Position numbers and translations under genes: made by a program
Assembly (NCBI RefSeq): GCF_037479095.1
Contig: NZ_JBBGZW010000001.1
Span: 1,054,001-1,118,000 of the forward strand
Source of the DNA: Pantoea nemavictus
GTDB taxonomy: Bacteria; Pseudomonadota; Gammaproteobacteria; Enterobacterales; Enterobacteriaceae
Direction of reading: 5' to 3'
DNA length: 64,000 nucleotides
Notes under the pieces: model-generated
Told to the model about the DNA's origin: nothing
The model's input: only the letters and a program-made list of their open reading frames with translations
The model's database searches: none
Shown: positions 2,238 through 25,409 of the stretch, piece by piece
Position numbering within the stretch: position 1 is the stretch's first letter
How the letters are laid out: each line of letters begins with the position of its first letter

Positions 2238-2245
2238 ATTGCTAT

Positions 2246-3947: not shown

Positions 3948-4052
3948 GGCACACCTGTTTTGGTTACGCATCGGCTGATGCGAACAGGCTTTTACAACCA
4001 AACTTATCTATTAATATTCAACAGCTTAACCACTAACACTGCGCGTAAAAAC

Positions 4053-4199: not shown

Positions 4200-4323
4200 A
4201 TTCTCTCATCATATATTTGTGTGAAGTGAATTGAAGCTTCCATTGACCATCAAGGGGGAGTAGATATTGACAATCCTCAAGAAAACCATAAAGTGATATA
4301 AAATCTTATGAGGTAAAGGTGAT

Positions 4324-4809: not shown

Positions 4810-4829
4810 AGTACTTTGCCTTATATATT

Positions 4830-5759: not shown

Positions 5760-5805
5760 GCGTTTAGCCCGTGATAACGTACATTAAACCAAGTAACTGT
5801 TCGCA

Positions 5806-6258: not shown

Positions 6259-6259
6259 G

Positions 6260-6799: not shown

Positions 6800-6840
6800 A
6801 GATAGTTCTCCATTAATTAGTGATATTCAGTGCGGAGGGA

Positions 6841-8211: not shown

Positions 8212-8241
8212 AAATTTAATCCAGAATATCAATACGTTAAA

Positions 8242-8287
8242 AAAAGGAACATACAAAACCATAAAGAGAACTTGATAAGTTCCTTTT
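8242..8287. promoter_or_regulatory. Inverted repeats between the Mu-type repressor and ner-like genes
   Basis: The divergent promoter region contains AAAAGGAAC (8242-8250) repeated in inverse as GTTCCTTTT (8279-8287), and a nested AACTT-GAT-AAGTT (8269-8281). These are good candidates for operators bound by the repressor, the Ner-like protein, or both. The function is inferred from position and symmetry. Confidence 0.5.
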
Positions 8288-8331
8288 ATTCGCATTTAAT
8301 ATCCTTGTACTGATACAGAGGAGTTAACACT

Positions 8332-8610
8332 GTGAATAACCACGTAGCATCGCAAAAAAAGCGAACTAAAGGAAGGGCTAAGGACTGGCACAGGGCCGAC
8401 ATTGTGGCTGCACTACACAAACGTGGAGTAAGTCTGGCGCAGTTATCCCGCGATCAGGGATTAGGTTCCCGTACATTGAACAATGCTTTCAGTCAGCACT
8501 ATCCGAAGGCAGAACGGTTGATCGCAGCAGCGCTGGGCATGATGCCCGAAGATATATGGCCCAGCCGTTATTTTGATAAACAACCTTCAATACATTCCGG
8601 CAAGGATTAG
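8332..8610 (+). CDS. Ner/SfsB-type transcriptional regulator
   Basis: A 92-residue protein of the Ner family (Mu Ner, SfsB/Nlp). DWHRADIVAALHKRG, then GVSLAQLSRDQGLGSRTL and the ending GMMPEDIWPSRY are hallmark segments of the family. Ner proteins repress early transposable-phage promoters and antagonise the repressor. The gene starts with GTG, preceded by GAGGAG at good spacing. It is divergent from the Mu-type repressor and directly upstream of a broken hypothetical gene (2 bases to its ATG), so it probably leads an operon of small accessory genes rather than a transposase. Confidence 0.85.
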   Translation: MNNHVASQKKRTKGRAKDWHRADIVAALHKRGVSLAQLSRDQGLGSRTLNNAFSQHYPKAERLIAAALGMMPEDIWPSRYFDKQPSIHSGKD

Positions 8611-8612
8611 CC

Positions 8613-9140
8613 ATGGCGACCACCATCACTTCGGTGACAAAAAGCTTTGAGTACTTCTTTCATTCCCTTTACCGCACTGAGTTTGTAAAAACACTACGCC
8701 TGAATGAGTGTAGTTAAAGGGAACTTCTACCTCTGGTTCGTTGCTACCTTTTAGGCTGTTTCTCCGACGATGTATCGCCTGAAGTGAAAGGGAAACTTCC
8801 GGGCTCTATTACGGGAAACGGCTATATCGACTTTGTAATAGATGATGTGGCTGTTGAGTTTGCCGTCCGTAAACCCACCGCAGCCAAATCAACGGTATCA
8901 GCCACAGTCAACAGCACTGAAATGAAGAAACTGATGAAGTATGACGGCAAAGCATTGCTGGTACTGTTCGACTTCTCTACCACGCCCTATTCGGAAGCCC
9001 AGATTGAGGCTTTCCGCGACTGGCCTTCTCTCGGCAAAGGCAATCACAAAAAGTCGGCGTTTAATGTTGCTTATTTTTATGTCGAAAAACGCAGACCGCT
9101 CACTTTCGGGAAAATCACCAAAAATATTCGTATTAACTGA
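8613..9140 (+). pseudogene. Hypothetical protein interrupted by an in-frame stop
   Basis: Reading from the ATG at 8613 (MATTITSVTKSFEYFF...) the frame meets TAA at 8715-8717 and then continues open to 9140. Both parts are in the same frame and the second half is protein-like (LPLVRCYLLGCFSDDV..., then IDDVAVEFAVRKP and ALLVLFDFS). A 175-codon gene with one nonsense codon is the simplest reading. A GTG at 8784 could restart translation and yield 118 residues. I do not recognise the family. The C-terminal part is short, basic and probably alpha/beta. The alternative is a sequencing error at the stop. Confidence 0.5.
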
Positions 9141-9152
9141 CAAGGAGTAACG

Positions 9153-9512
9153 ATGAAAAGGGTCATTTTAGCCACCCTAGTATTGAGTACATCAGCTCTG
9201 GCTACCGCCGCAGAGTATTTCAAACCGAACGGATCACTATCACTGGTAGCGGGAGGTAATGGTGTGGAATTCAGCATTAATGCAGCAAGTAAAGATGCTT
9301 CAGGTATCTGCAATATGGAAGGCTCAGCGCAATCTATTGGTCCCGGTAAAAATCAGAAGCATCGCTGGGTTTATAACGATAAATCGACCCAATGCGTAGC
9401 AGCCATCAGCGAGCAGAACAACGGCAGAGTGACGGTAATAACAAAGGGGTGTGAAGGCTATTGCGGCATGACCTCCATTGGAGCAATGGATGGGATTTAC
9501 CAGAAAAAATAG
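9153..9512 (+). CDS. Small secreted cysteine-containing protein
   Basis: A 119-residue protein with a clear Sec signal peptide (MKRVILATLVLSTSALATAA, cleavage after about residue 20). The mature part holds five cysteines, including a C-terminal C-E-G-Y-C-G segment followed by GAMDGIYQKK. This ending is seen in several small periplasmic proteins of unknown function. AAGGAG is well placed before the ATG. It lies in a plus-strand run from the ner-like gene onward, 12 bases after the broken gene. A fragment of a second copy survives just beyond the IS903 (see 11675-11716). Disulfide-stabilised periplasmic location is likely; an inhibitor or immunity role is possible but unsupported. Confidence 0.6.
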   Translation: MKRVILATLVLSTSALATAAEYFKPNGSLSLVAGGNGVEFSINAASKDASGICNMEGSAQSIGPGKNQKHRWVYNDKSTQCVAAISEQNNGRVTVITKGCEGYCGMTSIGAMDGIYQKK

Positions 9513-9536
9513 CGAGGAAATGCAGGGAGATGGAAT

Positions 9537-9746
9537 GTGAGTGAGCAGGAACGGGATGATCTTAACCGTAAAATGGACGCGGAGCTTTACGATAAAACGC
9601 TTCAGCTGATTATTCATGAAGGGCTAACAGAAATTAAAGTCAAAACGGTACAACTTTATTTTCGCGTGGGGTATAACCGTGCAGCCCGAATAGTTGAACG
9701 TCTACGTCTGGAAAAAATATTAAATCATGCAATTAACAAGGATTAA
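9537..9746 (+). CDS. Stand-alone FtsK-gamma-like winged-helix protein
   Basis: A 69-residue protein whose sequence follows the gamma domain at the end of FtsK: AELYDKTLQLIIHEG, then VQLYFRVGYNRAARIVERL. In FtsK this domain binds KOPS sites and activates XerD. Here it occurs alone. The start is GTG at 9537 with a purine-rich site upstream. Its stop overlaps the ribosome site of the following lipoprotein gene. It may be a DNA-binding regulator of the local operon, or recruit XerCD-like recombinases, which would be relevant with a tyrosine recombinase 4 kb away. That is speculation. Confidence 0.55.
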   Translation: MSEQERDDLNRKMDAELYDKTLQLIIHEGLTEIKVKTVQLYFRVGYNRAARIVERLRLEKILNHAINKD

Positions 9747-9750
9747 TCAA

Positions 9751-10124
9751 ATGATATCAAAATTAGTTTTATTAACCATCTCTGCAAGCCTGCTGACTGG
9801 TTGTGGGGACAACACACCAAAATGTAATAGTGATGATGCTAAAAGTCTAGTAGTTGATATTTCGAAAAAAAAATCAAGAAACAATTTGACCAAATCAGGA
9901 ACTCACAGATGGCAGGGATGGTGCCTAAGGATGCAGATAACATTCAATTAGCCGTTATTAATGTCAGAACTATAAAGCATGACTCCTTGCTAGATGCCTA
10001 CTCATGCTCTGCCGACTTGAAAATGACTTTACCAGACAAGACAACTAAATTACCGATAACTTATAATATCCAAAAGTCGGATGACAGTAACGGGCAGTTT
10101 TACATAAACGTATTTGGCTTGTAA
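9751..10124 (+). pseudogene. Small lipoprotein gene with a poly-A frameshift
   Basis: Translation from the ATG at 9751 gives a lipoprotein signal (lipobox LLTG-C, ending at residue 16) and then about 22 residues before a run of nine A (9865-9873). After the run the reading frame drifts into low-quality sequence and stops at 9951. If one more A were present, the frame would join directly to MAGMVPKDADNIQL... and run to 10124 with sensible sequence, giving about 124 residues. The gene is therefore frameshifted at a homopolymer. The cause could be a real slippage mutation, phase variation, programmed slippage or a read error. The family is unknown to me; a Cys pair suggests a disulfide in the periplasm. 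Confidence 0.55.
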
Positions 10125-10189
10125 AACGCTTAGGCAATATCAGGGATTCCTTGGGTTAAAATAATTGAAATTTTAACCCAAAAGGAAAG

Positions 10190-10417
10190 TTGATGAAGAA
10201 GATCACCATGTTTGCCATTATCACTATGACTTTAATTTTTTGGCTCATCATATATAAGGCATCTGAACCTGAAAAAGATCTCCCTATTAATACTCCCCTC
10301 ATCATTAAATCTCACTTACCAGGTGCATGTAAGGCCACAGTTTTTGAAACTGCTGGCAATATCATACGAAATGCTTCTATCGTCGCGTGCAGGGTGCAGT
10401 TTTATACACATTACTAA
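10190..10417 (+). CDS. Small membrane-anchored hypothetical protein, possibly truncated
   Basis: A 75-residue ORF with one N-terminal hydrophobic segment (FAIITMTLIFWLIIY) and a short polar tail containing two cysteines. AAAGGAAAG precedes the start. The last dozen residues look unlike a normal ending, and adjacent frames carry plausible peptide up to the IS903, so the gene may be frameshifted. Function unknown. Confidence 0.35.
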   Translation: MMKKITMFAIITMTLIFWLIIYKASEPEKDLPINTPLIIKSHLPGACKATVFETAGNIIRNASIVACRVQFYTHY

Positions 10418-10617
10418 TTTTACTGCATTCTCTAACTGCGCGCAGGTGCAGTATACGCCATCGAAAAATATATTTGATGTCAAGATCTGTATTCACCAAC
10501 CCTTGCTTTTCCTGTTCAATTGAAGAAAATTCCCATATACAACCAAGGGCCTTGCCCATGTGGAAAGGGCTGAAAAAATCAGACAGAATGGCACCATGTT
10601 GACGGACAAAACAGCAA
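10418..10617 (+). pseudogene. Degenerate coding remnants left of IS903
   Basis: Between the small membrane protein and the IS left end, short protein-like segments occur in plus-strand frames. Examples are FTAFSNCAQVQYTPSKNIF and, after a stop in the same frame, KGLAHVERAEKIRQNGTML. None is a full gene. The sequence directly beside the IS does not match the sequence on its other side, so I cannot tell whether this is the front of the gene whose tail is at 11675-11716. Confidence 0.3.
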
Positions 10618-11672
10618 GGCTTTGTTGAATAAATCGAACTTTTGGCCGTAATCAGGATCAGATCACCACATTCCCGATCCTGTAGCGGTATCACGTGGCA
10701 AAACAAACGTTCAAAATCACCAACTGGGCTGAATACAACAAGGCGCTCGTCAACCGGGGTTCACTGACATTCTGGCTTGATGAGTCGCCCATCCAGGCCT
10801 GGTATGACGAGCCAGGCACGTCTTCACATGGTCATCCGCAACGTTATTCTGAGCTGGCTATTACCACCGTACTGATGCTCAAACGCGTCTTTCGCCTCAC
10901 GCTGCGCGCCGCGCAGGGATTTATTGACTCCATTTTTACCCTGATGAAGCTCCCGCTCTGTTGCCCGGATTATTCCTGTGTCAGCAGGCGGGCTAAGTCC
11001 GTCTGCATCCCTTTAAAAAACCCTACACGTGGCGAGATTGCCCACCTGGTTATCGACTCCACCGGATTAAAATTCTTCGGTGAAGGTGAGTGGAATGTGC
11101 AAAAACACGGCCAAGAAAAGCGCCGCATCTGGCGTAAACTGTACCTGGCGGTAGACGACGGTACACATGAGGTTATCTGCGCTGACCTTTCCCTGAACAA
11201 CGTGACGGATGCAGAGGCCTTCCCGGGGCTTATTCGCCAGACCCACCGGAAAATCAGAACCGTCTGCGCCGACGGCGCTTATGACACCAGACGGTGCCAC
11301 GATGAACTGCGGCGTAAGAAAATCAAAGCACTGATCCCACCGCGAACTCGCGCAGGTTACTGGCCGGCTGAATATGCCGACAGAAATTAGGCGGTTGGCC
11401 GGCAACGGCTGACGGGAAGCAATGCGTACTGGAAATGGCACACGGTTTACAACCGGCGTTCGGTGGCTGAAACGGCAATTTACCGTGTCAAGCAGCTGTT
11501 TGGTGGGCATCTTACGCTGCGGGATTATGATGCGCAGGTTGGGGAGGCTATGGCCATGATCCGCGCCTTAAACAAAATGACGCGCGCAGGGATGCCAGAA
11601 ACTGTCCGGATTGCCTGAGGGAGTCAGCGATGAGGAGAGCTTTTATCTAAATCCGATTTATTCAACAAAGCC
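10618..11672 (+). mobile_element. IS903-type insertion sequence (IS5 family), inactive
   Basis: A 1055-bp element bounded by perfect 18-bp terminal inverted repeats GGCTTTGTTGAATAAATC (10618-10635) and its complement (11655-11672), which are the IS903 ends. It contains a single transposase gene that carries an amber codon. The 9 bases outside the left end (AAACAGCAA) do not match the 9 outside the right end (GCATGAATG). So the usual 9-bp target duplication is missing, which points to recombination or deletion after insertion. Confidence 0.9.
10695..11618 (+). pseudogene. IS903 transposase with an amber codon
   Basis: A 307-codon DDE transposase of the IS5 family. The catalytic acids lie in VIDSTG, CADGAYDT and SVAETAIYR. 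A TAG at 11388-11390, where a glutamine CAG is expected (YADRN-stop-AVGRQRL), splits the frame and removes the catalytic Glu from the translated 231-residue product. The rest of the gene is open to TGA at 11618. Without suppression the element cannot move itself, although IS903 transposase supplied in trans could act on its intact ends. Confidence 0.9.
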
Positions 11673-11674
11673 GC

Positions 11675-11716
11675 ATGAATGCTGTGGGTTCGATGGATGG
11701 CCTCTATAACCAATAA
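11675..11716 (+). pseudogene. C-terminal tail of a second copy of the secreted Cys protein
   Basis: Immediately after the IS right end, 14 codons read MNAVGSMDGLYNQ-stop. They align without gaps to the end of the secreted protein at 9153-9512 (MTSIGAMDGIYQKK). This is the tail of a paralogue whose front was removed or displaced by the IS event. The match is short, but the register, position and stop codon all agree. Confidence 0.6.
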
Positions 11717-11730
11717 CACAAACAAAAATG

Positions 11731-11759
11731 AGACATCCATCAAAAATTGCTGGATGTCT
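11731..11759 (+). terminator. Stem-loop after the small secreted-protein genes
   Basis: AGACATCCA (11731-11739) and TGGATGTCT (11751-11759) form a 9-bp stem with an 11-base loop, followed by a short TTTC. It lies 14 bases after the stop of the paralogue tail and is probably the terminator of the original plus-strand operon. Confidence 0.45.
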
Positions 11760-11953
11760 TTCACCAACAAAGCATTAAAAACCACAAACGTTAAGCAACG
11801 ACACCGCTTCTGAAATACCTACTATTTCGGTACAAAGTCGGAGCAGAGCCTCAGTAAGCTATGAGCGAAAAGGAAGATAATCGACGTCACCACTGACAAT
11901 AAAGACCTGTCCGGGAGACCTCATATCAAATTCGGTTTCGCGCTATCCAGATA

Positions 11954-13066
11954 CTAGCGCGCAAGGTAAAATTTATCAGACAATACCAAGATAGCCTGCT
12001 CCCGTTCTTCTGCCGTATCTGGCAATGACGAGGCGCGCATTTTCAGGTTCTCAATACTCTCCAGCATATTAAGAATTTCCGTTATCGCACAATGCAGATT
12101 CTCATCTTGAGACACAGGAGAATCACCTTTCACACGCCCTCTTACCGCTAGTTGATCAGACGAAAACTCGCTGAAATAGGCACGCAAGCGTTCTGCCTCT
12201 GGGTTGCCACGAAATTTGAGCCGCTGAACGTCATTATAATCGGGGCAGAGCTGGTAGCACATATCTCGGAAACCAGGGTATCCCTCGACGAATTCCTTTT
12301 GCAGATCTTCCACGGCAAGCGTTTTCAGTAATCGCATCAGTTCGTTCTTTATCCCCTCTAGATTAGTCAAATAGTCTGGCGTGTTACGACCTCGGTGAAC
12401 CAAACTTAGGATGTTCAAACTGTTGAGCATCTCCAAAAAAGCATTGGTATAAACCTCTGCAGAAGAGCCTTTAAAACGCGGATATTCCACAATGCCTCTG
12501 GATCGCCAGTAGAATTTATCTTTATTCGCTTCCCCCCATTTAAATTCACCATAGGTCACGGCGCAGTCAACATTGTAGCCGTTTCGGCACGTCATACCAT
12601 CAATATACTCACCCATGAACTGACGCAATTTTTGTGCGAGCAAAGCTGCCGTTTTCCCTCCGTTTACTAGCAGTTGCATTGCGCGTTCACTGTCATCTTT
12701 ATCGAGATCAGCGACCTCGGAGAAAAAAAAGTTCACATCTGCATTGAGCCTGTCCATATCATTTTTTATCACTTGGTCCAGTTTGCGCTCAATGCGGAAT
12801 AATTTTTCACTCTGCTCACGAAACCCTGAGCGTATATCGCGATTGATAACTGACAAAGTCACCAAAAACTCATTCTGAAATTGCACCATCAGCGCCGGTG
12901 AATATTTGAGATCCTCTTTCACCATGAGTGTGTTTAGTGGCGTAGTAAATCTCCCGCGAGAATCACGTAATTGTAACCCCTCTATCTTCACCATACCGTC
13001 ATCAATCTGTTTTTTGATCGTGTCGGTCAGTATTGCCTTGATGCTCATTTCCTCAAGATTAGCCAT
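11954..13066 (-). CDS. Protein of unknown function, second gene of a divergent unit beside RADAR
   Basis: A 370-residue protein I do not recognise. I start it at the ATG at 13066 (MANLEEMS) because GAGGA lies 7 bases upstream; the ATG 15 bases earlier lacks one. A region around residues 75-115 (NRDIRSGFREQSEKLFRIERKLDQVI) looks like a charged amphipathic helix or coiled coil, followed by a helical stretch. No nucleotide-binding motif, signal peptide or membrane segment is visible. It follows the 497-residue gene by 30 bases and is surely co-transcribed with it. The pair diverges from rdrA. A role in defence is suggested only by position. Confidence 0.6.
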   Translation of the reverse strand: MANLEEMSIKAILTDTIKKQIDDGMVKIEGLQLRDSRGRFTTPLNTLMVKEDLKYSPALMVQFQNEFLVTLSVINRDIRSGFREQSEKLFRIERKLDQVIKNDMDRLNADVNFFFSEVADLDKDDSERAMQLLVNGGKTAALLAQKLRQFMGEYIDGMTCRNGYNVDCAVTYGEFKWGEANKDKFYWRSRGIVEYPRFKGSSAEVYTNAFLEMLNSLNILSLVHRGRNTPDYLTNLEGIKNELMRLLKTLAVEDLQKEFVEGYPGFRDMCYQLCPDYNDVQRLKFRGNPEAERLRAYFSEFSSDQLAVRGRVKGDSPVSQDENLHCAITEILNMLESIENLKMRASSLPDTAEEREQAILVLSDKFYLAR

Positions 13067-13096
13067 ACGTAAATTCCTCATCGGCGTTATGCCAGC

Positions 13097-14590
13097 TTAG
13101 TCAGTAAAAATGGTCACTTTGCCCTGTTTATAGCCGAGTTGGTGCATAAACTTTTCCGCTATCCTCGGTAAAGACTGATAGGTTTCAATACCGCTGAATC
13201 TGAGATATTCAATCAGTTGGGTATCAACCCGCAGTTCCCACTCAGCAATGGACAACATTTTCTGGAAACCATCATCGACTTGCTTTGATAATAGCGCTTC
13301 CACTGCCATGTGATAACGCATATCCCAATAAAGTAATAACGCCTCAGGGTAACGCCGCAGATCAGGATAGTTGCCTTCAGGATCAGATCTGGCATATCGC
13401 TCTGCGTCTTTCAAAATAGAAGTTACAGATTGCTGAACATTCCCCGTTCCAGTCATCACCGATGGAATACGAACGCCTAACTTTTCGTCATGCAGGATCA
13501 GCGCTTTTATTATCTGCTTATTCATTTTGGGCAAAGGCCCTGTGAGATCGCGAGCGTAATGGAGAACTATACTTTCGACAAAACCGGCCTGCTTCTCCAG
13601 CGAAGGTTTAACGCGGGTAACAGCTTTTCCGGTAAGGAAAGTGAGAACATCTTTATCAGAAAACGAAGGCACCTTTGCACAACGCAATGTTCTCAACTGT
13701 AGCTGGTTTTTATAAACGGCTTGCATAACAAGATGGTTCGAATTTTTCCGCACTGAATATTCCTGCAGCGCCAGCGAAGCATAGAGCAAAAAATCGAGAC
13801 GATCATAGGCGGGTTCAATTGCTTTTTTTTCCAGTATCATTCCTAGGGCTGCGTTAATGTTATTACGTGAATAATGGTCTGGGTCATGCCGTTCACCATC
13901 GATTTCACTTTTTACATAAACAGCCATCTTTTCACATGTAAGTGTGAGATTACTCGAAATACGCCATGCCTCTTCTGCGTAAGTTTTTGGCATGGAAAAG
14001 GTTAAATGGCCAAGGATTTCCGCCAGTACAGCAGAGTTTTCCTCACTTTGCTCATGCTGCTGCGGGAACGCGGATCTGAATTCAAAATTCGCTTTATCGG
14101 TACTTTCAACTTTCAGTAAACGGAAGATCTGCGGACGGTAAACCCGGCAAATACGATAGAAAAGTGTGACCACCTTAAACGCCAGATTACGGTCTTTCTC
14201 AAGGAAAACCTTAAAAGGAATACCGGTCAGTACAGCGATATTCTTCTTTATCTTTTTCACCAGATCGGCGACATCAGCACCTCCATAAGTTTGTGCAAGG
14301 TAGATATGAAACGCTTTCTCGCTGGAATCAGGAATAGGTTGTGAGCTACCGATTTCATAGCCACTGCCGTAGATCACTCGCTTTTGTTCATCGGACAGAT
14401 AACGATGGTAGATATACTCCTGCGTTTGCAAGGTTACACCGCCACCAATGACGCTCCCGCCCAGTACGCTGCGCTGTAAAAGAGTGTCTTTATGCTGCAA
14501 TAGGGTTTTCAAACCATTTTCGTCAAAAGTAAACCCCATCTGCTCAAGCATGTGCTTTATCTGTAATTCCGTAAAAGTCTGTGCAGCCAT
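13097..14590 (-). CDS. Protein of unknown function, first gene of a divergent unit beside RADAR
   Basis: A 497-residue protein with no family I can name. Near the N-terminus a glycine-rich stretch (VLGGSVIGGGVTLQ) precedes QEYIYHRYLSDEQKRVIYG; it is not a P-loop. The remainder is mainly helical with no transmembrane segment. AAGGA 7 bases before the ATG supports the start. It leads the two-gene unit transcribed away from rdrA, and the 464-base gap between them holds both promoters. The length, intact frame and good ribosome sites argue for a functional gene. It could be a separate defence module, an accessory part of RADAR, or unrelated. Confidence 0.6.
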   Translation of the reverse strand: MAAQTFTELQIKHMLEQMGFTFDENGLKTLLQHKDTLLQRSVLGGSVIGGGVTLQTQEYIYHRYLSDEQKRVIYGSGYEIGSSQPIPDSSEKAFHIYLAQTYGGADVADLVKKIKKNIAVLTGIPFKVFLEKDRNLAFKVVTLFYRICRVYRPQIFRLLKVESTDKANFEFRSAFPQQHEQSEENSAVLAEILGHLTFSMPKTYAEEAWRISSNLTLTCEKMAVYVKSEIDGERHDPDHYSRNNINAALGMILEKKAIEPAYDRLDFLLYASLALQEYSVRKNSNHLVMQAVYKNQLQLRTLRCAKVPSFSDKDVLTFLTGKAVTRVKPSLEKQAGFVESIVLHYARDLTGPLPKMNKQIIKALILHDEKLGVRIPSVMTGTGNVQQSVTSILKDAERYARSDPEGNYPDLRRYPEALLLYWDMRYHMAVEALLSKQVDDGFQKMLSIAEWELRVDTQLIEYLRFSGIETYQSLPRIAEKFMHQLGYKQGKVTIFTD

Positions 14591-15054
14591 GATCCGTTCC
14601 TTATTGATTCTTCATCGGTTCTACGTTTTGAATAGCGACCAGCTTAGTCGGATTACTTTAAGCAAATAAGGGGAGAAATTTATAAAGTTCCTGCACCCGT
14701 CTGTAAGTACCAGATGTGAGATCGACTTTCCACAACGGAAGATCACGTAACCAGTTCACAAGTCACTCCAACTATAGAGCAGGGTCGTCTAACGGGGTGG
14801 GGTCAGTCCATTTAGCGCCTTGATGGGACACTATAACAAGCGCCTTAGGCGCATCTTTCAGTTAACCTTTCTCTTATAGAGTACCGTTCGTTTATGGCAC
14901 GGTGAGCACCACGAGAGAGCCAGCCCCTTTACCCCTCTCAAATAATTTAGTTTTAAGGGTTACAGGTACGGTTCAGTAAATGTCTTTTGCATTTGTCGTG
15001 ATAGAATAAGGTCCTAATTTTGCCCTATAGAAATCCGCTAGCCAGGTGCCGATC
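14591..15054. promoter_or_regulatory. Divergent promoter region between the unknown pair and rdrA
   Basis: 464 bases without a gene. It contains a short inverted repeat GCGCC-TTA-GGCGC (14840-14852), with a related GCGCCTTGAT at 14815. The last 120 bases before rdrA are AT-rich. Promoters for both directions must lie here, but I could not place -35/-10 boxes with confidence, and no dedicated repressor gene is present in the unit. Confidence 0.4.
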
Positions 15055-17676
15055 ATGAGCCAGAACAAGCGATACATCCCCCTCAATACTGGCGAATCCG
15101 CCGTTTTGCCCGACGCTAACACCCTTCTGCCTCGTGGTGAGGTTTATGAACCGCTGGCACGGATGATTATTGAAGCAGTTCAAAAGGCAAAAGCCGCCAC
15201 AGGCAGATCGCTAAATGAGCTGCGCGAACATAATGCCATCTCGATAGATGGCGCACGCGGGACTGGTAAAACTGCTGTATTGGTAAATCTGAAAAGCTAT
15301 CTAAAAGATCGGGACGTCTTGAAAGATGTCCACATTCTTGACCCGGTAGACCCGACTCTGTTGGAAAATGGCGACTCGTTATTCCTACACATCATCGTCG
15401 CCGCTGTGCTTCACGATAATGATGTCAAAGAACAGCAGCGGATTACACCGAATAATGCCCGTAGCCTGAACCAGACGCTGGAGAAGCTCGCCCAATCGCT
15501 GGAATCGGTCGAGACACAACAAGAACGTCACGGCATGGACAAGGTACGTGCCATGTACAGCAACAAACAGCTAGCCGACTGCGTGCAAGATTTTTTCCGC
15601 GAAGTGTTGAGCTTGCTGGACAAACAGCTGTTGATCCTTCCGATCGACGATGTCGATACCTCGTTGAATCGTGCATTTGAAAACCTCGAAATCGTACGAC
15701 GTTATCTAGCTACACCTCATGTGTTGCCCATCGTCTGTGGCGATCGATCACTTTACGATGAGGTAACCTGGCGCGATTTTCATGGCCGCCTCACCAAAGA
15801 TTCCAGCTACCGTCGCACAATAGCCTATGAAAGGGCCGTAGAATTAGCAGCAGAGTATCAACGCAAGATCCTGCCTTTCCCTCGCCGTTTGACCATGCCG
15901 GAAGTCAGCAGTTATTGGCAGTGGGGGCCAGTTGGAGAAGAGGCGGCTGACACTAGAGTTACTCTCGGCAATGCAAATGATGCAATGCCTTTGGCTAACT
16001 TCATTTCTTGGCTGGAGATCTTTTTGACTGGCCCGGTGAATGGATTTGAAAGTAGTCGTCCCTCGTTGCCAATACCTTCTATCCGTGCCTTGTCGCAATT
16101 AATCAGGCATTGCCATGATCTTATTCTGGAATTGCCAGCTGAAATTCGTACTGCTAAGGATGAACTGAAGGTGCGGATTAGTTGGCAAATGCCTCCTAAG
16201 CTTCAGGATGAGGCTGATAAAACAACGGAGCTTCAGGATGAAGCTGATAAAGCAGCGAAGCAGAAAAGAAATGAGTTTGCACATAATCTGGTGAATTACT
16301 TCTGCTTTGAACCTAAAGCTGGTGCAGCCTATCTGATATTGCTTGCCAAACTGCATTGGCAAGAGTGTTTCGAATCCTCATCCTCACAACATCGCAGCCT
16401 TCTTGACACCCCCTTGTTCCAGCCCCTTAAACATGCTACTGCCAACTTTGAGCTTTTCGACAAGGCGGATGACCTTTCTGCTTGGCCGATTTTATTGGAT
16501 GGACGGTTGCCTGAAGAGTGGTTGGCCGGTATCAAATCTCAGAAAACTATTCTGCCGTATCCAGTGGCAGAAGTTGGGGTAAATTCAAGCAAAGGGTGGG
16601 ATTACATCAAGGAGATTCAAAGCCTTTCAATACAAGGTTTGCAAGTCGAGCAAAGGAAAAAGGCAAGCTTTTTGATTTCCTTGCTGGCACAGAATAATTT
16701 TTACACCAACGCCAAGAAAACCATGCTGCTGAATATAGGCCGGGTGTTTGAGTTGTTAATTTCCAGCATTGTCGGTCCGCTATCGGTCGAAGAAATTCAT
16801 GCAATCATGGGGCGGGCTCCTTTCTTTTCTACGGCAGCACTGGCACCTACTAAAACAATCACTTTTAACGAAAAAGAAAATAAGTCCAATGGTGGTGATG
16901 AAGGGTCGGAAGAGTTTCAAAACGCAGAGTACGATATAAATTTGATAGCAGAGAGACTACATCAAGAAATAGAAATGTGGCGGCAGACCTGTCATGTTAA
17001 TCAAATTGATCTTGCGCCATGGTTGGTTTACAAGGTGTTTAATAAAGTTTATAGCCAAGTGGCGAGTGATGAGTATGTGCCAAATGGCATGAAACGTATC
17101 AGAACGGCGCTAAATATGGTAGCTCACAGTTTCTATGCAACTTGGTTTGCCTTTGGTAGTTTTGAAAAGGGTGAGCTGTTTGGCTTGCCTAATGTAATAG
17201 CAACGACCAACATTAATCCTGAAAATCTAAAAAATTACACAAGCAATGACCAGTTTAATGTCAACGTCAAACCAATACTGGAAGCTTTTGATAAAAATAA
17301 TTCTTTAAGGGCTGTCAGCATTGTGCTTGCAGAGCACCCGTTGAAGAAGTGGATTGATGAGGTAATCAATTTGGATTGGCCTAAGTCTGAGGAAAATCTT
17401 GAGGCTAAAGCTGAAAAACATTTGAGAGAAGAGCTTGGCATCACCGCCAAGAATATAAATAAAACGACAATAAAAACACAAGCTAGAAAACAAATAGAAA
17501 AATTAGGTTCGATATATGATCATATGGCAGCTAATTTCGGAGGTGATAGCAAGTACGCAAAACTCCTAAAAGAGATTTTTGATGAATTGTCTAAAGAACC
17601 AGCGCCAAATTCGTCAAATCAGCCGCAACCTAATATACAGCTGACAGGACAAGGTCAGGACAAGGAACCAGAGTAA
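15055..17676 (+). CDS. rdrA: RADAR defence ATPase RdrA
   Basis: An 873-residue AAA+-type ATPase. Walker A GARGTGKT is at residues 66-73 and Walker B LILPIDDVD at 193-201. The rest is a long helical region. Together with the next gene it makes the RADAR pair, in which RdrA and the deaminase RdrB form a large complex that limits phage growth through adenosine or ATP deamination. The start is ATG at 15055 (MSQNKRYIP), preceded by AGGTG; a GTG three codons earlier is less likely. The stop TAA shares its last A with the ATG of rdrB, so the two are translationally coupled. The frame is intact with no missing motif. A defence role is established for the family; activity here is inferred. Confidence 0.85.
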   Translation: MSQNKRYIPLNTGESAVLPDANTLLPRGEVYEPLARMIIEAVQKAKAATGRSLNELREHNAISIDGARGTGKTAVLVNLKSYLKDRDVLKDVHILDPVDPTLLENGDSLFLHIIVAAVLHDNDVKEQQRITPNNARSLNQTLEKLAQSLESVETQQERHGMDKVRAMYSNKQLADCVQDFFREVLSLLDKQLLILPIDDVDTSLNRAFENLEIVRRYLATPHVLPIVCGDRSLYDEVTWRDFHGRLTKDSSYRRTIAYERAVELAAEYQRKILPFPRRLTMPEVSSYWQWGPVGEEAADTRVTLGNANDAMPLANFISWLEIFLTGPVNGFESSRPSLPIPSIRALSQLIRHCHDLILELPAEIRTAKDELKVRISWQMPPKLQDEADKTTELQDEADKAAKQKRNEFAHNLVNYFCFEPKAGAAYLILLAKLHWQECFESSSSQHRSLLDTPLFQPLKHATANFELFDKADDLSAWPILLDGRLPEEWLAGIKSQKTILPYPVAEVGVNSSKGWDYIKEIQSLSIQGLQVEQRKKASFLISLLAQNNFYTNAKKTMLLNIGRVFELLISSIVGPLSVEEIHAIMGRAPFFSTAALAPTKTITFNEKENKSNGGDEGSEEFQNAEYDINLIAERLHQEIEMWRQTCHVNQIDLAPWLVYKVFNKVYSQVASDEYVPNGMKRIRTALNMVAHSFYATWFAFGSFEKGELFGLPNVIATTNINPENLKNYTSNDQFNVNVKPILEAFDKNNSLRAVSIVLAEHPLKKWIDEVINLDWPKSEENLEAKAEKHLREELGITAKNINKTTIKTQARKQIEKLGSIYDHMAANFGGDSKYAKLLKEIFDELSKEPAPNSSNQPQPNIQLTGQGQDKEPE

Positions 17677-20423
17677 TGCTCCAGCGCACCTTGACTGAAC
17701 ACGCCGCTGAGTGTTTTTTTGGCGATGAAAGATTAGCCGCACGACTGTGGCAGCACTTGCTAAAGTCAGCTGACGGTCTGGAGTCTGACCATTGGCATCG
17801 ACTGCAGGATGATTTATATCATTTGCTAGTAGAGGGCTTGGAGGCGCGCCATCCTCGCGAGCACCGGCTGACCGATGTGCGCCAGTTGATGGGGCGCATA
17901 CTTGATGGTGACTTGTTGCTGACGCCAAAACTGCCGTGGCTGGACGAGCTACAACAGAGGCTATTGCAGCGCAATGGCGACTTGCTGTGCTACCTTGAGA
18001 GTGAGGTGCAGGCGTATGTGCGCCTTGCAGCGGGGCTGGACCCTACGTTGTTGGCCGGCTGGCATTTAGCACAGTGGCTGAATGACATGCCTCTGCCACC
18101 GATACACGACATCCGCCGCGTGGTGTCCGCGCAGACTGCATTTTTCGCCCCATCTGGAAACCCATCACTACCGTTTGCCGAGGGGCATGTGCATTTCTGG
18201 GGCATCACAACCGATTGCGCGATTCTCGACGATTATCTGCTGTCGGGTGACGAGTTAAGACTCGGCAACAATGCAAGTCAGTGGCAGAGAGAGCAGCACG
18301 ACAACTTGGAGACTCTGTTGCAGCGCGCGCGGCAACTGTTGGTGTTGTTGCTGGAATCCGACGAGCAGACCAAGCGGCCCCAAAATACTAAGGACAATCA
18401 GCCATGTTGTTCGGAAGGTTGGCCGCAGCATCTGGCGCGGCTCAATCTTGCCATGCACTCCTCTACCCTCAAGCCAGACTGGGATTTGCTTGCCGCTAGC
18501 CTACATACTACCAACGTTGGTAGTGCGGATTGGCTACTGAGCGAGTTTGCATTGGCAATGAAGCGTGGCGATGCCAATCGCTGGTTGTGGCTGTATGTCT
18601 ATCTTTGTCGCCGCTATTGCCAACCTGATACCCATCCACTGCAACGCGCGGCCATCTTGTGTTTCTGGCAGACCGTGAACCAGCTGCGTAGTAATCTGAT
18701 AATGGACGGGCAAGGGCTGACACGCTTTGCCGAGCGCTACTATCAATCAGGGCTCGGTAGGGGTGGCGACTATCAAGGGAATATGCGCCGATTGTGGGCA
18801 GGTCGTGCTGATGTGGCAGAGATCAAGTCAGCGCCGCTGGCATTTAAGCCGGCGTTTGTCGGCAAGATCGCTGGCGGCCTGCTTGCAAATGCCAGTTTGT
18901 CCTTGCCAAGCCCCCCCTACATTTTTGGTGAATCTGATATCCTGCTGGATATGCAAGCTTTGGCCGCCATGCAGGCGCTGGAACGCTGGCAATTCTGTGG
19001 CCACTTTTTTCGTTCACAAACTCACAAGCAAAATCAGCGCCCCAGGCCGGATCTTAAGAAGTTGTGGAAAGAGGCTGAAAAGCTGATACGCAATCTACAA
19101 AGTGCTTCCGGCTGGAACGCACCCGAGTTTTTAGGCGGCAAACAGAATCAAAATTTCCATTTCCAACCGGCTAGATGGTTTCGTGGGTTAGATGTGGCAG
19201 GTGATGAAAACGCATTAAAAATTGAATGGTTTGCGCCAGTACTGCGTTGGCTGCGTAGCGGCTTCAAACCACTGTCGGATGGCGAACGTGCCAGCACCGG
19301 CTTTCATCTGAGTATTCATGCCGGTGAGGATTACGCCCATCCGGCATCGGGCATGCGCCATATAGACGAGACAGTACATTTTTGTAAGATGCGTGAAGGC
19401 GACCGGCTGGGCCACGCCTTAGCGCTGGGCATAGTCCCGAAAAAGTGGGTTGCACGGCAAGGCGAGATGATACTGCCACTGGACGAGCATCTGGATAATC
19501 TGGTGTGGCTTTGGCATCACGCAAGTGTGCTGAGTGCCGTACTGCCGCTGGCGCAGCAGGTATTGCCCCTGTTCGAGCGTCGTATTGCGCGTTTCTGGCG
19601 CTTGTCGCGCTGGTGGCAGGTGCCGGATTTGATGGACGTAGATGCGTCTAGCCAGCAGGCGGGGCTGAATTCTGCTGCCGGTTGCGATGATGCGCCTTTG
19701 CGTCATGCGACACCGGATGATCTGTATCAGGCATGGTGGCTACGTCGTAATTGTCACTTTCGCCTAAATGAGGTTGGTGATAGCTGGCAAATCACTTCGC
19801 AAGAGCTGTGCGCTTTGCCAGATCATCAAGAATTGAGCGAGAGCAGTACGCTGGCGAGCCAGCTTTATAAGGAACGGCATAAATGGCTGGAGAAAATTAC
19901 AAATGTGCCTTTGGTGATTGTATGCATGGGAGATGAAGCGGCTGCACATGGTGGATTTAATTCCAAGTTTGGCCGTAAGATTGATGAAGACATTCTGAAA
20001 GATATCGACACCCCGGCCGAGCTGGACTTTATGCACGCGCTGCAAGACTGGCTACTAACTGAATACGATAAGCTGGGGCTGATCATCGAGGCGAACCCGA
20101 CGTCCAATGTCTATATCGCACGACTGAAATCACACGCCGAACACCCGATTTTCCGCTGGTATCCACCAGACGAATCGGTGCTGGAAAGCGGCGCTTCGGC
20201 CAACCTTTATGGATTGCGCCGAGGACCTGTGCGTGTTCTAGTGAACACCGATGACCCCGGCATCATGCCGACGACACTACGCACCGAGTTTTTGCTGCTG
20301 CGCGAGGCTGCGCTTGAGCTTAAGGTAGGCCGCACATTGGCCGAACGCTGGTTGGAGACCTTACGGCAGTACGGCATCGAGCAATTTCATCGCAATCATT
20401 TTCCGGTATTCGAGCCAATTTAA
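17676..20423 (+). CDS. rdrB: RADAR adenosine deaminase RdrB
   Basis: A 915-residue protein with a divergent adenosine deaminase fold. The metal site begins with H171-x-H173 (EGHVHFWG). The catalytic HAGE is at 548-551 (SIHAGEDYAHP), NPTSN follows, and the metal-binding Asp lies in VNTDDPG at 856-862. The length (about 900 residues, far beyond a housekeeping Add of about 335) and large insertions between motifs are typical of RdrB. In known RADAR systems RdrB assembles as a large hollow oligomer and deaminates adenosine or ATP to inosine forms when RdrA is active. All catalytic motifs are present. No rdrC or rdrD membrane gene follows; IS debris starts within 100 bases. Confidence 0.9.
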   Translation: MLQRTLTEHAAECFFGDERLAARLWQHLLKSADGLESDHWHRLQDDLYHLLVEGLEARHPREHRLTDVRQLMGRILDGDLLLTPKLPWLDELQQRLLQRNGDLLCYLESEVQAYVRLAAGLDPTLLAGWHLAQWLNDMPLPPIHDIRRVVSAQTAFFAPSGNPSLPFAEGHVHFWGITTDCAILDDYLLSGDELRLGNNASQWQREQHDNLETLLQRARQLLVLLLESDEQTKRPQNTKDNQPCCSEGWPQHLARLNLAMHSSTLKPDWDLLAASLHTTNVGSADWLLSEFALAMKRGDANRWLWLYVYLCRRYCQPDTHPLQRAAILCFWQTVNQLRSNLIMDGQGLTRFAERYYQSGLGRGGDYQGNMRRLWAGRADVAEIKSAPLAFKPAFVGKIAGGLLANASLSLPSPPYIFGESDILLDMQALAAMQALERWQFCGHFFRSQTHKQNQRPRPDLKKLWKEAEKLIRNLQSASGWNAPEFLGGKQNQNFHFQPARWFRGLDVAGDENALKIEWFAPVLRWLRSGFKPLSDGERASTGFHLSIHAGEDYAHPASGMRHIDETVHFCKMREGDRLGHALALGIVPKKWVARQGEMILPLDEHLDNLVWLWHHASVLSAVLPLAQQVLPLFERRIARFWRLSRWWQVPDLMDVDASSQQAGLNSAAGCDDAPLRHATPDDLYQAWWLRRNCHFRLNEVGDSWQITSQELCALPDHQELSESSTLASQLYKERHKWLEKITNVPLVIVCMGDEAAAHGGFNSKFGRKIDEDILKDIDTPAELDFMHALQDWLLTEYDKLGLIIEANPTSNVYIARLKSHAEHPIFRWYPPDESVLESGASANLYGLRRGPVRVLVNTDDPGIMPTTLRTEFLLLREAALELKVGRTLAERWLETLRQYGIEQFHRNHFPVFEPI

Positions 20424-20490
20424 AGGAGAATAATTGTCGGAAAAAATGCACATTTTGCGAAATAGTGAGTCGCCCCGCTTTTTTATATAG

Positions 20491-20619
20491 CTTCACAGTG
20501 GCTGTTGATACAAAAGCCGACTGTGCGCTTAACCGAACGGCTAATGGAAGAGCATGCCAAGGCCGATGACTTTATTCTTCACCGTTACTTAACACAATTA
20601 ACGGTGTCGCAGGTTTAGC
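20491..20619 (+). pseudogene. Orphan C-terminal coding fragment
   Basis: A plus-strand open stretch ending in TAG reads ...QKPTVRLTERLMEEHAK, then DDFILHRYLTQLTVSQV. It has no start codon or ribosome site and looks like the tail of a lost gene, possibly from a plasmid or phage. It overlaps the IS110-type fragment on the opposite strand by about 20 bases. Confidence 0.3.
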
Positions 20620-20875
20620 CGTTGGACCGCCCTGAGCTGGGACCACCATGCGATGTTGCGATGATAATCAGAGGTATGTTCAAAGGCAGCGATAATACTG
20701 TCATGGGGTGAAGCGGTGAGAGCAAGCAGTCGGTTGAACCCTTCCAGTGTGTTTTCGATACGCAGATAAAACGCTCGTCCATCAGGGTACCGAATTTTCG
20801 CATCATGATGTTTTTTAGAGATATCCAAGGCAATCAGTGTCCCCAAATGCTGACATTGCTAACAGGAGTGTTCAT
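20598..20875 (-). pseudogene. N-terminal fragment of an IS110-family transposase
   Basis: The minus strand encodes ALDISKKHHDAKIRYPDG, then a segment ending AFEHTSDYHRNIAWW. This is the start of an IS110-type (DEDD) transposase. The true ATG at 20875 (MNTPVSNVSIW) is in another frame, so there is a frameshift as well as a loss of the rest of the protein. It is dead and probably a remnant of an old insertion downstream of rdrB. Confidence 0.65.
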
Positions 20876-20947
20876 TGATTTTCTCCACTTGTGACAGACA
20901 CTACAAGTTGTCGAAAATGGCTGACTTAAACGCTAACCAGATACATT

Positions 20948-21262
20948 CAATAGGTATCACGGCCCGGAATTTATCTCCCTGGCACTGGCTGAATGGGCAG
21001 AGAAACATGCAGTAAGACTGGAGTTTATCCAGCCGGGTAAGCAGACGCAGAACGCTTTTATTGAGCATTTAACCGGACGTATCGTACAGAAATACTCGAT
21101 TTTTATCTGTTCAGAACGCTGAATGAAGTGCAGGAAATCACGGAAAGGGGGTTGTCAGAATATAACTGTGAACGCCCGCATGAATCACTGAACAATATTA
21201 CGCCGGAGGAATATCGACAACACCATCATTTGGCTGGGATCTCAAAAAATGCCTGGAACTAA
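20948..21262 (+). pseudogene. C-terminal fragment of an IS3-family transposase
   Basis: The plus strand encodes pieces of an OrfB integrase core: HGPEFISLALAEWAEKHAV, then LEFIQPGKQTQNAFIEHL, and after a frameshift FYLFRTLNEVQEITE and CERPHESLNNITPEEY, with the stop at 21260-21262. The order and spacing match the IS3 family (IS407/IS2-like), but the gene lacks its N-terminal half and contains frameshifts. It is decayed debris between RADAR and the integrase. Confidence 0.75.
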
Positions 21263-21355
21263 AACGGGCCTATTAAAGTTTTAATTCCTTCACCCATCAT
21301 AACATGTTGATTTAAAATAGAATCTTGTACATCTAGAAAAAATATTAGACCAAAC

Positions 21356-22636
21356 TTATTGCAGACTATCTAAATAATCAGCCCATACCTGCAACCACTT
21401 CCGACACTCAGCATCATACTTATACAAATTATAAATCCCTTCAACGCCGCCACGTGTATGCCCCAATACGGCCTCTGCTACCTCATTTGGACACTGCAAA
21501 CGAGATAAGCCCGTTCGTACTGTACGACGCAGGTCATGCGGCGTCCAATGAGGAATATCAAGCATTTGACCGCTTTCACGCAAACGCCATGAGTTTTCAG
21601 TTAGATACTTCTGCTGGATTGGCTTCTTAGTGGCTTGCGAAGGGAATAGATATTTATCAGAGGTAAGGCGTAGAACCTTGAGAAAGTCGATCGCCTGATC
21701 CGATAACTGAACGTAACGCTCTACTCCAGTCTTGGTTTCTCTAAGATGAATGGTGCCTTTATCAAGATCAACATCCTTCCATACCATATTGCAGACTTCA
21801 CCGGTACGACATCCGGTCCAGAGAGTCAGACGTAACACGTTTTTGATCGTTGGCGTGTAAGCCGAGCCCGGAAGCCATTTAAGGAATTTTGCAAGCTCGT
21901 CCTCACTCAGTACCCGTGTTCCACGTCCATTTGTGAGCTTGATTCTTGTCTGTCGTAAGCTGGATTTTGCTAACAATGCTGGATTCGCAAAACTGTCATC
22001 AAAGCGCCCAAGGCCAATTGCAAATTCATATGCGAGTGAAAGCTCCCTCAGTACATTCCCTGCCTGTACGGTTGCACCTCGAGCTACAATGCCATTGATT
22101 AAATTAATGACATCCTGGCGCGTAATCTCAGCAGCATTTCGTGTTCCTAAGCTTTTAACAGCGTCACCATAGAGAGTACGACGAACCTCGGCCTGCCCTT
22201 TCGGCTTTCTGGCACCGGGAATGATTTTTCCGTCCTTCGTTTTTCGATCCTCAATACGTTCGGTAAGATACAGTTCAACTAGTCCCTGTACGGTCAATTC
22301 AGGGATCTTAGCCTGTTCAGCTTCAATCGCACGCTGGAGCTTATCTTGCTTAAGCTCAGACGCAGGACACCGGCCTTCCTGTCGGAGAAGCTTTAATTCG
22401 TGAAGTTTAAGACGTGCAGCGGCGAGAGAAATTTGGGGGAAGTTACCAATTTTAACCTGTGCGAGCTTGCCAGTCAGAGGGCTTGTGTAGCGGTAGAAAA
22501 AAGACTTAACCCCAGTAGCACCACAAGAGACACGTAAGCCTCGATTTTCGCCTACATCAGCCTTATCTTTGTCGCCAGGCTTCATCATTTCTACCGCTTT
22601 AAACGAAAGTGGTTTTCCCTCTTGTTTTCCTGCCAT
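21356..22636 (-). CDS. P4-type tyrosine integrase of the genomic island
   Basis: A 426-residue integrase with the layout of P4/CP4-57-like enzymes: an N-terminal DUF4102-like arm-binding domain (VSCGATGVKSFFYRYTS), a SAM-like core, and a catalytic domain with R in LWTGCRTGEV, H and R in PHDLRR, H in LGHTRG and a tyrosine in IYNLYKYD. GGAG 5 bases before the ATG at 22636 (MAGKQEG) favours this start over one 7 codons upstream. The gene is transcribed away from mutS, and its 5' side lies only about 220 bases from it, so the island boundary is probably in that gap. I did not find a tRNA at this site, unlike most P4-type islands. The frame is intact. Confidence 0.9.
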   Translation of the reverse strand: MAGKQEGKPLSFKAVEMMKPGDKDKADVGENRGLRVSCGATGVKSFFYRYTSPLTGKLAQVKIGNFPQISLAAARLKLHELKLLRQEGRCPASELKQDKLQRAIEAEQAKIPELTVQGLVELYLTERIEDRKTKDGKIIPGARKPKGQAEVRRTLYGDAVKSLGTRNAAEITRQDVINLINGIVARGATVQAGNVLRELSLAYEFAIGLGRFDDSFANPALLAKSSLRQTRIKLTNGRGTRVLSEDELAKFLKWLPGSAYTPTIKNVLRLTLWTGCRTGEVCNMVWKDVDLDKGTIHLRETKTGVERYVQLSDQAIDFLKVLRLTSDKYLFPSQATKKPIQQKYLTENSWRLRESGQMLDIPHWTPHDLRRTVRTGLSRLQCPNEVAEAVLGHTRGGVEGIYNLYKYDAECRKWLQVWADYLDSLQ

Positions 22637-22677
22637 AAAGACTCCGTTATCATGCACCTTATGCAGTCATGAACATA

Positions 22678-22759
22678 AATGTAGGTTGCGCTGTATGTGC
22701 CCATATTTTACCAGGCCATAGGTTGATAAGCTACACTTTAACCTACATTTAAATGTAGG
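22678..22759. promoter_or_regulatory. Palindromic repeats upstream of integrase, possible att or operator
   Basis: The integrase-mutS gap contains the perfect 18-bp palindrome CCTACATTTAAATGTAGG (22742-22759). The same half-site AAATGTAGGTT occurs again at 22678-22688 and its inverse AACCTACATTT at 22740-22750. Such a cluster fits arm-type integrase or autoregulator sites. Without the other island end the attachment core cannot be defined. Confidence 0.5.
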
Positions 22760-22853
22760 ATTTCATGATATCCGATGAGACAACGTGAAATCTAATGATA
22801 ACCATAAAAATCACTAAATCATTAAAAATGAAGAGAATGGACATCACAAACCG

Positions 22854-25409
22854 ATGAGTGCAATAGAAAATTTAGACTCGCACACCCCAATGATGCAGCA
22901 ATACCTGCGCCTGAAGGCCGATCATCCTGACATCCTGCTGTTTTACCGCATGGGCGATTTCTACGAGCTGTTTTACGATGACGCGAAACGCGCCTCGCAG
23001 CTGCTGGAAATATCTCTGACTAAGCGTGGCGCATCCGCGGGAGAACCCATCCCGATGGCGGGTGTGCCCTATCATGCGGTTGAAGGTTATCTGGCGAAAC
23101 TGGTCCAGCTCGGCGAATCAGTCGCGATCTGCGAGCAGATTGGCGATCCCGCCTTGAGCAAAGGCCCGGTTGAGCGCAAAGTCGTGCGTATCGTTACACC
23201 CGGCACCATCAGCGATGAAGCTTTACTGCAAGAGCGCCAGGATAATCTTCTGGCCGCTATCTTTCAGAGCCAGCGCGGCTTTGGTTACGCGACGTTAGAT
23301 ATTAGCTCTGGTCGATTCCGCCTGAGTGAACCGGGCGATGTGGAAACAATGGCGGCGGAACTGCAGCGTACCAATCCCGCTGAGTTACTCTATCCCGAAG
23401 ATTTCCAGGCGATGACGCTGATTGATCAACGTCGTGGTCTGCGTCGCCGTCCGCTGTGGGAATATGAAATCGATACGGCGCGCCAACAGCTCAATCTGCA
23501 GTTTGGCACCCGCGATCTGAGCGGTTTTGGTGTCGAGCAGGCCCACCTGGCACTGCGTGCCGCCGGATGTTTACTGCAATATGTCAAGGATACGCAACGC
23601 ACCTCGCTGCCGCATATCCGCTCGCTGAGCATGGATCGTCAGCAGGATAGCGTGATTATGGATGCCGCCACACGCCGAAATCTGGAGATCACTCAGAATC
23701 TGGCGGGTGGAATCGAGAATACGCTGGCGGCAATACTGGATAAAACCGTCACGCCTATGGGCAGCCGTATGCTTAAACGGTGGCTACATATGCCTCTGCG
23801 TGATGTCTCTACTATTGCTCGTCGCCAGGAATCTATCGCTGAGCTGCAATCACTCAGCCAGGAATTGCAGCCGGTGCTGCGGCAGGTGGGCGATCTGGAA
23901 CGTATTCTGGCGCGCCTCGCGCTGCGTACTGCTCGCCCCCGCGATTTGGCGCGCATGCGTCACGCCTTCCAACAATTGCCAGAGTTAAACCAGCAGCTTG
24001 CAGGCGTTGAGGCTACGCAGCTAATTAACCTGCGGTCTCAGATGGGTGAGTTCAACGAGCTGCGTGAGCTGCTCGAGCAAGCCATTATTGAATCACCGCC
24101 GGTGCTGGTGCGCGACGGTGGCGTGATTGCCCCAGGATACAATGCTGAGCTCGACGAATGGCGCGCCCTGGCGGATGGCGCCACCGATTATCTTGATCGC
24201 CTGGAGATTCGCGAGCGTGAAAAACTCGGGCTGGATACGCTGAAAGTCGGCTTTAATGCGATTCACGGCTATTACATTCAGGTAAGTCGCGGGCAAAGTC
24301 ATCTGGTACCCATTCACTATGTTCGCCGTCAGACATTGAAAAATGCTGAGCGTTACATCATCCCCGAACTGAAAGAGTATGAAGACAAGGTTCTGACATC
24401 AAAAGGGAAAGCGTTAGCCCTTGAGAAAGGCCTCTATGAGGACCTTTTCGACCGTTTGCTGCCGCACCTTGAAGCGCTGCAAAACAGCGCAGCCGCGCTA
24501 TCAGAACTGGATGTATTAGCCAATCTGGCCGAGCGCGCCTGGACGCTAAACTACTGCCGTCCGGTGCTGCAAGAAAAAGCGGGGATTCGCATTACCGCAG
24601 GACGCCATCCGGTGGTTGAACAGGTGCTGAAAGAACCCTTTATCGCCAACCCGCTGTCGCTCTCTCCGCAACGGCGCATGCTGATTATTACCGGCCCCAA
24701 TATGGGCGGTAAAAGTACCTATATGCGCCAGACCGCCTTGATCGCTTTGATGGCGTGGATTGGTAGCTATGTGCCCGCAGAAGAAACGGTCATCGGCCCG
24801 ATCGATCGTATATTCACTCGCGTCGGCGCTGCAGATGACCTGGCTTCCGGTCGCTCCACCTTCATGGTTGAGATGACGGAAACCGCCAATATCCTGCATA
24901 ACGCCACCGAAAATAGTCTGGTGCTAATGGATGAAATTGGTCGCGGTACCTCAACTTACGATGGGCTGTCGCTGGCATGGGCTTGTGCAGAGAGCCTGGC
25001 GAATCGTATTAAAGCCATGACGCTGTTCGCTACCCACTATTTCGAGTTGACTACGCTACCAGAGAAAATGGAAGGTGTGGTGAATGTGCATCTGGATGCG
25101 GTGGAACATGGCGATACTATCGCCTTTATGCATAGCGTACAGGATGGCGCGGCGAGCAAAAGCTATGGTCTCGCGGTAGCTGCGCTGGCGGGCGTGCCGA
25201 AAGAGGTGATCAAGCGTGCACGTAACAAGCTGAAGGAGTTAGAAGCACTGTCCGGTAGCTCTGCAGCATCAACGGTGGAAGGTTCGCAAATGCAGTTGCT
25301 GGTGACAGAAACCTCACCAGCGATGGATGCGCTGGAAGCACTGGATCCTGATAGCCTCACACCTAAGCAGGCGCTGGAATGGATTTATCGCCTCAAGACG
25401 CTGGTCTGA
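22854..25409 (+). CDS. mutS: DNA mismatch repair protein MutS
   Basis: An 851-residue mismatch-recognition ATPase, almost the length of E. coli MutS (853). The N-terminal mismatch-binding segment [15 protein letters not shown] contains the Phe-x-Glu wedge. Walker [10 protein letters not shown] is at residues 614-622, and the ATPase dimer motifs [12 protein letters not shown] and [11 protein letters not shown] follow. It binds mismatches as a dimer and recruits MutL and MutH. It is convergent with rpoS, separated by a shared terminator. The island integrase lies just upstream, so the mutS promoter must fit within the 217-base gap. It is intact; the insertion did not cut it. Confidence 0.97.

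Follow-up and report, generated by a model that had tools for sequence, protein, structure and literature searches.

An intact RADAR operon on a mutS-targeting mobile island in Pantoea nemavictus and its possible ties to KomB-KomC

The anti-phage system RADAR pairs an AAA+ ATPase, RdrA, with an adenosine deaminase, RdrB. In the accessible text of PMC9994260, RADAR converts (d)ATP to (d)ITP and produces massive dITP, and its authors state there that it is not known what (d)ITP brings about after infection. dITP also figures in Kongming, in which, according to the available part of a review, it binds KomB, KomC is activated and NAD+ is depleted. Here, we analysed a 64,000-nucleotide stretch of the Pantoea nemavictus genome (contig NZ_JBBGZW010000001.1, positions 1,054,001 to 1,118,000; hereafter the window) that carries rdrA and rdrB at positions 15055 to 20423. 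Judged from its sequence, the locus is very probably an intact, two-gene anti-phage operon of the RADAR type, one item in the cargo of a mobile defence island that targets mutS. This RADAR copy is ordinary in kind and the class of mutS island is already published; the value of the locus is as a lead to a possible coupling between RADAR and KomB-KomC (KomBC), and the result we least expected comes from beyond the window.

The rdrA-rdrB operon

The two genes are adjacent and in the same orientation on the forward strand (rdrA, 15055..17676, 873 aa; rdrB, 17676..20423, 915 aa). The rdrA start is the ATG at 15055, with an alternative GTG at 15046. The open reading frames (ORFs) overlap by one base, in a TAATG stop/start (17674..17678, + strand) that couples rdrA to rdrB within the junction sequence GAGTAATG, and the same one-base overlap is found in five relatives (L009, L010, L011, L012 and L062). 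The original prediction, made from the letters alone, had called a complete RADAR pair joined by this overlap. The overlap can be read in the sequence, and profile searches returned significant matches for both proteins: RdrA scored 1169 bits against PADLOC model PDLC02216 and 818.6 bits against NCBIfam NF041743 (cut-off 600), and RdrB scored 1530 bits against PDLC02219 and 1021.2 bits against NF041744 (cut-off 800). Both NCBIfam models are curated equivalog models, and membership of the two families is established. Sequence searches of solved structures matched RdrA to 8hr7 to 8hrb, 8fnt and 8fnw and RdrB to 8fnw, 8fnv, 8hr7 and 8hrc, in each case representing two distinct sequences; we take these entries to be RADAR structures.

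The nucleotide-binding and catalytic residues are intact. In RdrA, the Walker A motif GARGTGKT (residues 66-73) and the Walker B motif LLILPIDDVD (residues 192-201) align with those of solved RdrA. RdrB carries HVH at 171-173, HAGED at 548-552, GDRLGH at 575-580 and TDDP, which includes D859, at 858-861; the motif positions of the original prediction were right. In the alignment to 8fnw, counted by hand, H548, E551 and H580 fall on H498, E501 and H530 of E. coli RdrB, of which the two histidines are zinc ligands and E501 is the catalytic glutamate in the accessible text of PMC9994260. The HxH pair was placed by the homologue alignment and by position rather than by the 8fnw alignment. Among 120 listed homologues of the 147 found, this pair is kept in 119, the remaining one having a gap, and H548, E551, H580 and the DDP are kept in all 120. 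The zinc histidine tetrad (H171, H173, H548 and H580) and the catalytic E551 are all present, and the metal residues of the deaminase are retained as predicted.

Extrapolating assembly, activation and products from published work on E. coli and Citrobacter rodentium RADAR, RdrA would act as a ring ATPase that responds to infection and turns on RdrB, a presumed dodecameric deaminase. RdrB would convert ATP and dATP into ITP and dITP, and the upset nucleotide pool would halt phage replication at the cell's expense.

Full-length relatives of this RADAR, at 70-75%, occur in Enterovibrio and Chromobacterium. Among 5,426 E. coli genomes, the sole near match is the rdrB of strain HeN100 (91% DNA identity; L001:12083-14836), which has an IS1 element directly upstream. 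On a conjugative plasmid of Pantoea sp. At-9b (L095:760-6023), a 945-aa ORF is followed by a second one, whose 799-aa product has a stretch resembling the RdrB active site; the two genes are perhaps a distant RADAR-like pair.

The original paper on RADAR (Gao 2020) is said to treat rdrC and rdrD as optional parts of the system. We searched seven ORFs around the operon (RdrA, RdrB, the two divergent neighbours, the integrase, an IS5 and an IS110 fragment) with PADLOC, Pfam and NCBIfam and found no match to rdrC, rdrD or SLATT models among them, smaller ORFs being unscanned. We also read 15 rdrB loci downstream (the window, L001, L009-L012, L059-L063, L094, L096, L097 and L128), leaving out L013, which was too short, L126, which occupies the same place as L009, and L095, which is distant. 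In four of them (L011, L012, L061 and L094), rdrB is followed by a SLATT gene or an annotated rdrD, so the missing partner does not exclude membership of RADAR. The lack of rdrC or rdrD, which had been singled out as a point of interest, thus stands for the ORFs scanned and is unremarkable. Among the loci read, rdrD is also annotated as an accessory gene, and in L059 and L060 a gene of 232-243 aa precedes rdrA.

The mutS island and its other cargo

The operon lies on an island of 30,325 bp, of which the window holds positions 1..22897, the left end being 7,461 bp outside it. Its GC content is 45.0%, against 51.2% and 55.5% in the flanks. The boundaries were established with a genome of the same species (G028) that has no island and a clean junction: its mutS region aligns to -7461 and 22881, with a 17-bp imperfect overlap and an identical 8-bp core, ATGATGCA, at 22890-22897. 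The insertion point lies inside the part of mutS that encodes HTPMMQQ. It leaves the native MutS start (MKGAEQMDFSGHTPMM) displaced to the distant left end, 7,510 bp before the window begins and in a frame that runs into a stop, and the island provides a new start codon and a new upstream region; by comparison with the island-free site, the supplied start and the right attachment site occupy 22854..22897 (+ strand).

The original prediction had placed an integrase and mutS beside RADAR, and both are where it put them. The tyrosine integrase (21356..22657, - strand) matches PF13356, PF22022 and PF00589, a domain make-up that is presumably P4-like, and mutS (22854..25409, + strand) was named by its sequence. 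At a threshold of E 1e-40, homologues of the integrase were found in 20 of the 295 family genomes sampled (19 of 154 genera), and a mutS start lies in the fetched flank of 22 of the 28 integrase loci, from 18 of the 20 genomes. In a further genome of the genus (G039), the integrase-mutS stretch is 88.6% identical and backbone genes are shared with the window's island, with different cargo. Upstream of mutS, this second island (L055) carries large genes that, by eye only, we presume to be BREX-like. The start codons of the integrase and mutS in the window are 197 bp apart, within the 300 bp used as a criterion by Chu et al. 2017. The location next to mutS, also put forward as a point of interest, is that of a mobile island, as the prediction implied; it is not odd, because elements that insert inside mutS are a published class in the available text of PMC5296598.

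Upstream of rdrA, at a distance of 464 bases, begins a divergent pair of genes on the reverse strand. The first (13097..14590) encodes a mostly helical protein of 497 aa (predicted model pLDDT 83, pTM 0.84) that gave no match in Pfam, NCBIfam, PADLOC or PHROGs and no fold match in the PDB. The second (11954..13081, 375 aa), which comes after the 497-aa gene at L002 and L003 as well, gave weak Pfam and NCBIfam matches below cut-off and none in PHROGs. Each protein has 18 homologues, and relatives of the pair occur in several gammaproteobacteria, with plasmid and island contexts read in two. Hundreds of plasmids and E. coli chromosomes also contain two short stretches found between the pair and rdrA, at 14762-14933, which are perhaps insertion sequence (IS) ends. 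To the left of the window, island genes scored 696 bits (PtuA) and 346 bits (PtuB) with PADLOC and fell below the NCBIfam PtuA and PtuB cut-offs. This left part of the island (L058:12794-19605) holds the Septu-like PtuA/PtuB genes, type I methylase and specificity genes and a short Fic-like ORF, with no type I restriction subunit among the ORFs scanned.

The position of the divergent pair, immediately upstream of rdrA, could suggest that its products are accessory RADAR subunits, a regulator or an immunity function, and the original prediction had counted these neighbours among the points of RADAR interest. We consider such a role very improbable. The same gene pair is present on a Klebsiella plasmid and on the E. 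coli ES7 chromosome, where no RADAR lies nearer than about 10 kb, and no homologue of either gene was found in the fetched flanks of nine other RADAR loci (Enterovibrio, Chromobacterium, two Pseudomonas and five more). Since the pair occurs twice without RADAR nearby, its sequence context argues that it is probably separate cargo of the island rather than a part of RADAR, possibly a defence module of its own. A different doubt concerns whether the operon still works. Several observations weigh against an intact RADAR: similarity to the solved E. coli RdrA and RdrB is limited to short stretches, HeN100 has no rdrA within the fetched stretch, and rdrB is split into three ORFs at another E. coli locus, the last two indicating that RADAR decays in relatives. 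In addition, six-frame reading of the 20424-21355 interval after rdrB revealed a fragment of an IS110-family transposase (20598..20846, - strand; PF01548, 33.2 bits) and an IS3-like remnant, named by eye, at about 20950-21270, and these scars may reflect altered regulation or a lost partner. The locus might accordingly be a decaying, silent remnant with intact genes that lost its promoter or a partner to IS insertions. We regard this as improbable, given that both frames are full length and the active-site residues are in place, and favour an intact RADAR operon.

KomB and KomC in this genome and beside other RADAR loci

The genome that carries the window has intact genes for KomB (186 aa) and KomC (264 aa), adjacent on a second contig of 0.89 Mb (L100:7627-8978), and the 18 kb read around them contain no match to KomA. 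The only KomA-like protein found in it is a chromosomal deaminase that matches KomA at 31%. RADAR thus coexists in this genome with a pair resembling a dITP sensor, from which we infer that the two may work together. Beside KomB in the Pantoea loci examined there was likewise no KomA match, most of these loci reaching only 0.9-1.5 kb upstream. Kongming was reportedly first described in Science in 2025. A literature search returned no publication on RADAR coupled to KomBC; the original Kongming and RADAR papers were outside its reach.

In two of the 15 rdrB loci, L009 (Enterovibrio) and L062 (genome G095), a Ham1-family gene and a SIR2 gene lie directly 3' of rdrB. They are homologues of KomB and KomC (L009:13082-14424, about 304 bp after rdrB; L062:5900-7254, about 149 bp after). 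We take a deaminase-Ham1-SIR2 operon on a Vibrio plasmid as KomABC; against it, KomB of L009 and L062 is at 57% and 57% and KomC at 75% and 59%. At the site that reads DDSGL in an RdgB-like protein, the KomB sequences listed have EHTGL or EQTCL, which would suit a sensor more than an ITPase. In a tree of 15 loci, KomBC of Enterovibrio falls together with two pairs that are linked to KomA (support 93), and KomBC of G095 with the pairs of the window's genus (support 100). Because the two RADAR-linked pairs are not sisters, KomBC was gained at least twice or exchanged, and this topology suggests that RADAR probably recruited it independently in two lineages.

The KomB list has 23 rows for 22 loci, since the KomB of G000 appears twice (L098 and L100); L108, L110, L114 (the same as L062), L120, L121 and L123 were fetched in addition, and L129 later. 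L119-L121 are near-identical and L129 has almost the same identities, and they count as one locus, as do L122 and L123. On this count, a deaminase stands beside KomB in all five other distinct non-Pantoea loci read (L092, the L119 group with L129, the L122 group, L124 and L125), those of L124 and L125 being divergent, with an identity to KomA of only about 28%. KomB was found in 119 plasmid records, 95 of them from Pantoea (four of which were read), and KomBC-like DNA in 80 of 5,426 E. coli genomes, where the one locus read is a KomABC operon.

These data raise a tentative reading that is compatible with an intact RADAR operon on a mutS island, namely that RADAR is also a signal maker, that KomB-KomC of the second contig senses its dITP (or ITP) in trans and KomC then destroys NAD+, and that the coupling became a gene cluster in two other lineages. 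The placement of KomB and KomC directly after rdrB in L009 and L062 argues for it, as do the two likely recruitments and the intact KomBC with no adjoining KomA in the window's own genome. At E 1e-25, KomB occurs in five of 394 genomes of the order, four from the window's genus; the single one outside it is G095, where KomB is the gene next after rdrB. The chemistry also agrees, as far as the accessible text of PMC9994260 and of the review goes: massive dITP from RADAR would be the ligand that activates KomC through KomB. Other observations point away from it. KomC was matched in 53 of the 61 genomes of the genus and full-length RdrB in one, so KomBC is not kept for RADAR; the two systems are unlinked in the window's genome, KomBC is missing at 13 of the 15 rdrB loci, and the chromosomal adenosine deaminase could serve KomBC. 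In addition, two rhizobial plasmids encode KomC-like proteins with no KomB, as does an E. coli plasmid in truncated form. On balance, we consider it a conceivable though doubtful scheme that dITP would be alarm and poison at once, and that a horizontally acquired RADAR would plug into a resident KomBC suicide module, one that most genomes of the genus seem to have with no KomA adjoining it, the two having become clustered in Enterovibrio and G095, probably twice independently. The RdrAB-KomBC clusters of two lineages, together with RADAR and a KomA-less KomBC in this strain, suggest an answer to what (d)ITP does after infection, and these cases suggest more broadly that defence systems producing the same small molecule can share effectors.

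Comparison with described systems

The operon shares with RADAR of E. coli and C. rodentium the gene order, one-base coupling, AAA+ motifs, zinc and catalytic residues and family models. It differs from E. coli RADAR in aligning to the solved proteins over short stretches only and in that rdrC and rdrD were not found in the ORFs scanned.

The island resembles the mutS elements of Vibrio splendidus 12B01 described by Chu et al. 2017, as far as the accessible text of PMC5296598 goes: in both, the integrase adjoins mutS, insertion falls in HTPMMQQ, the native start is displaced and mutS gains a new start and upstream region. The cargo here is different, consisting of RADAR, Septu-like and type I restriction-modification genes, and as regards excision we see a naturally island-free site in the same species. 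The SpyCI islands of Streptococcus pyogenes, in the part of the source available, likewise lie by a mismatch-repair gene, at its 5' end; their target is mutL, whose transcription they block, whereas the target here is mutS, to which a new start is supplied.

With Kongming, as the available part of the review presents it, the likeness lies in the KomB and KomC homologues of this genome and of the Enterovibrio and G095 loci, where they stand 3' of rdrB. The difference is that no KomA adjoins them, and in the Enterovibrio and G095 loci RdrA-RdrB occupies the place of KomA.
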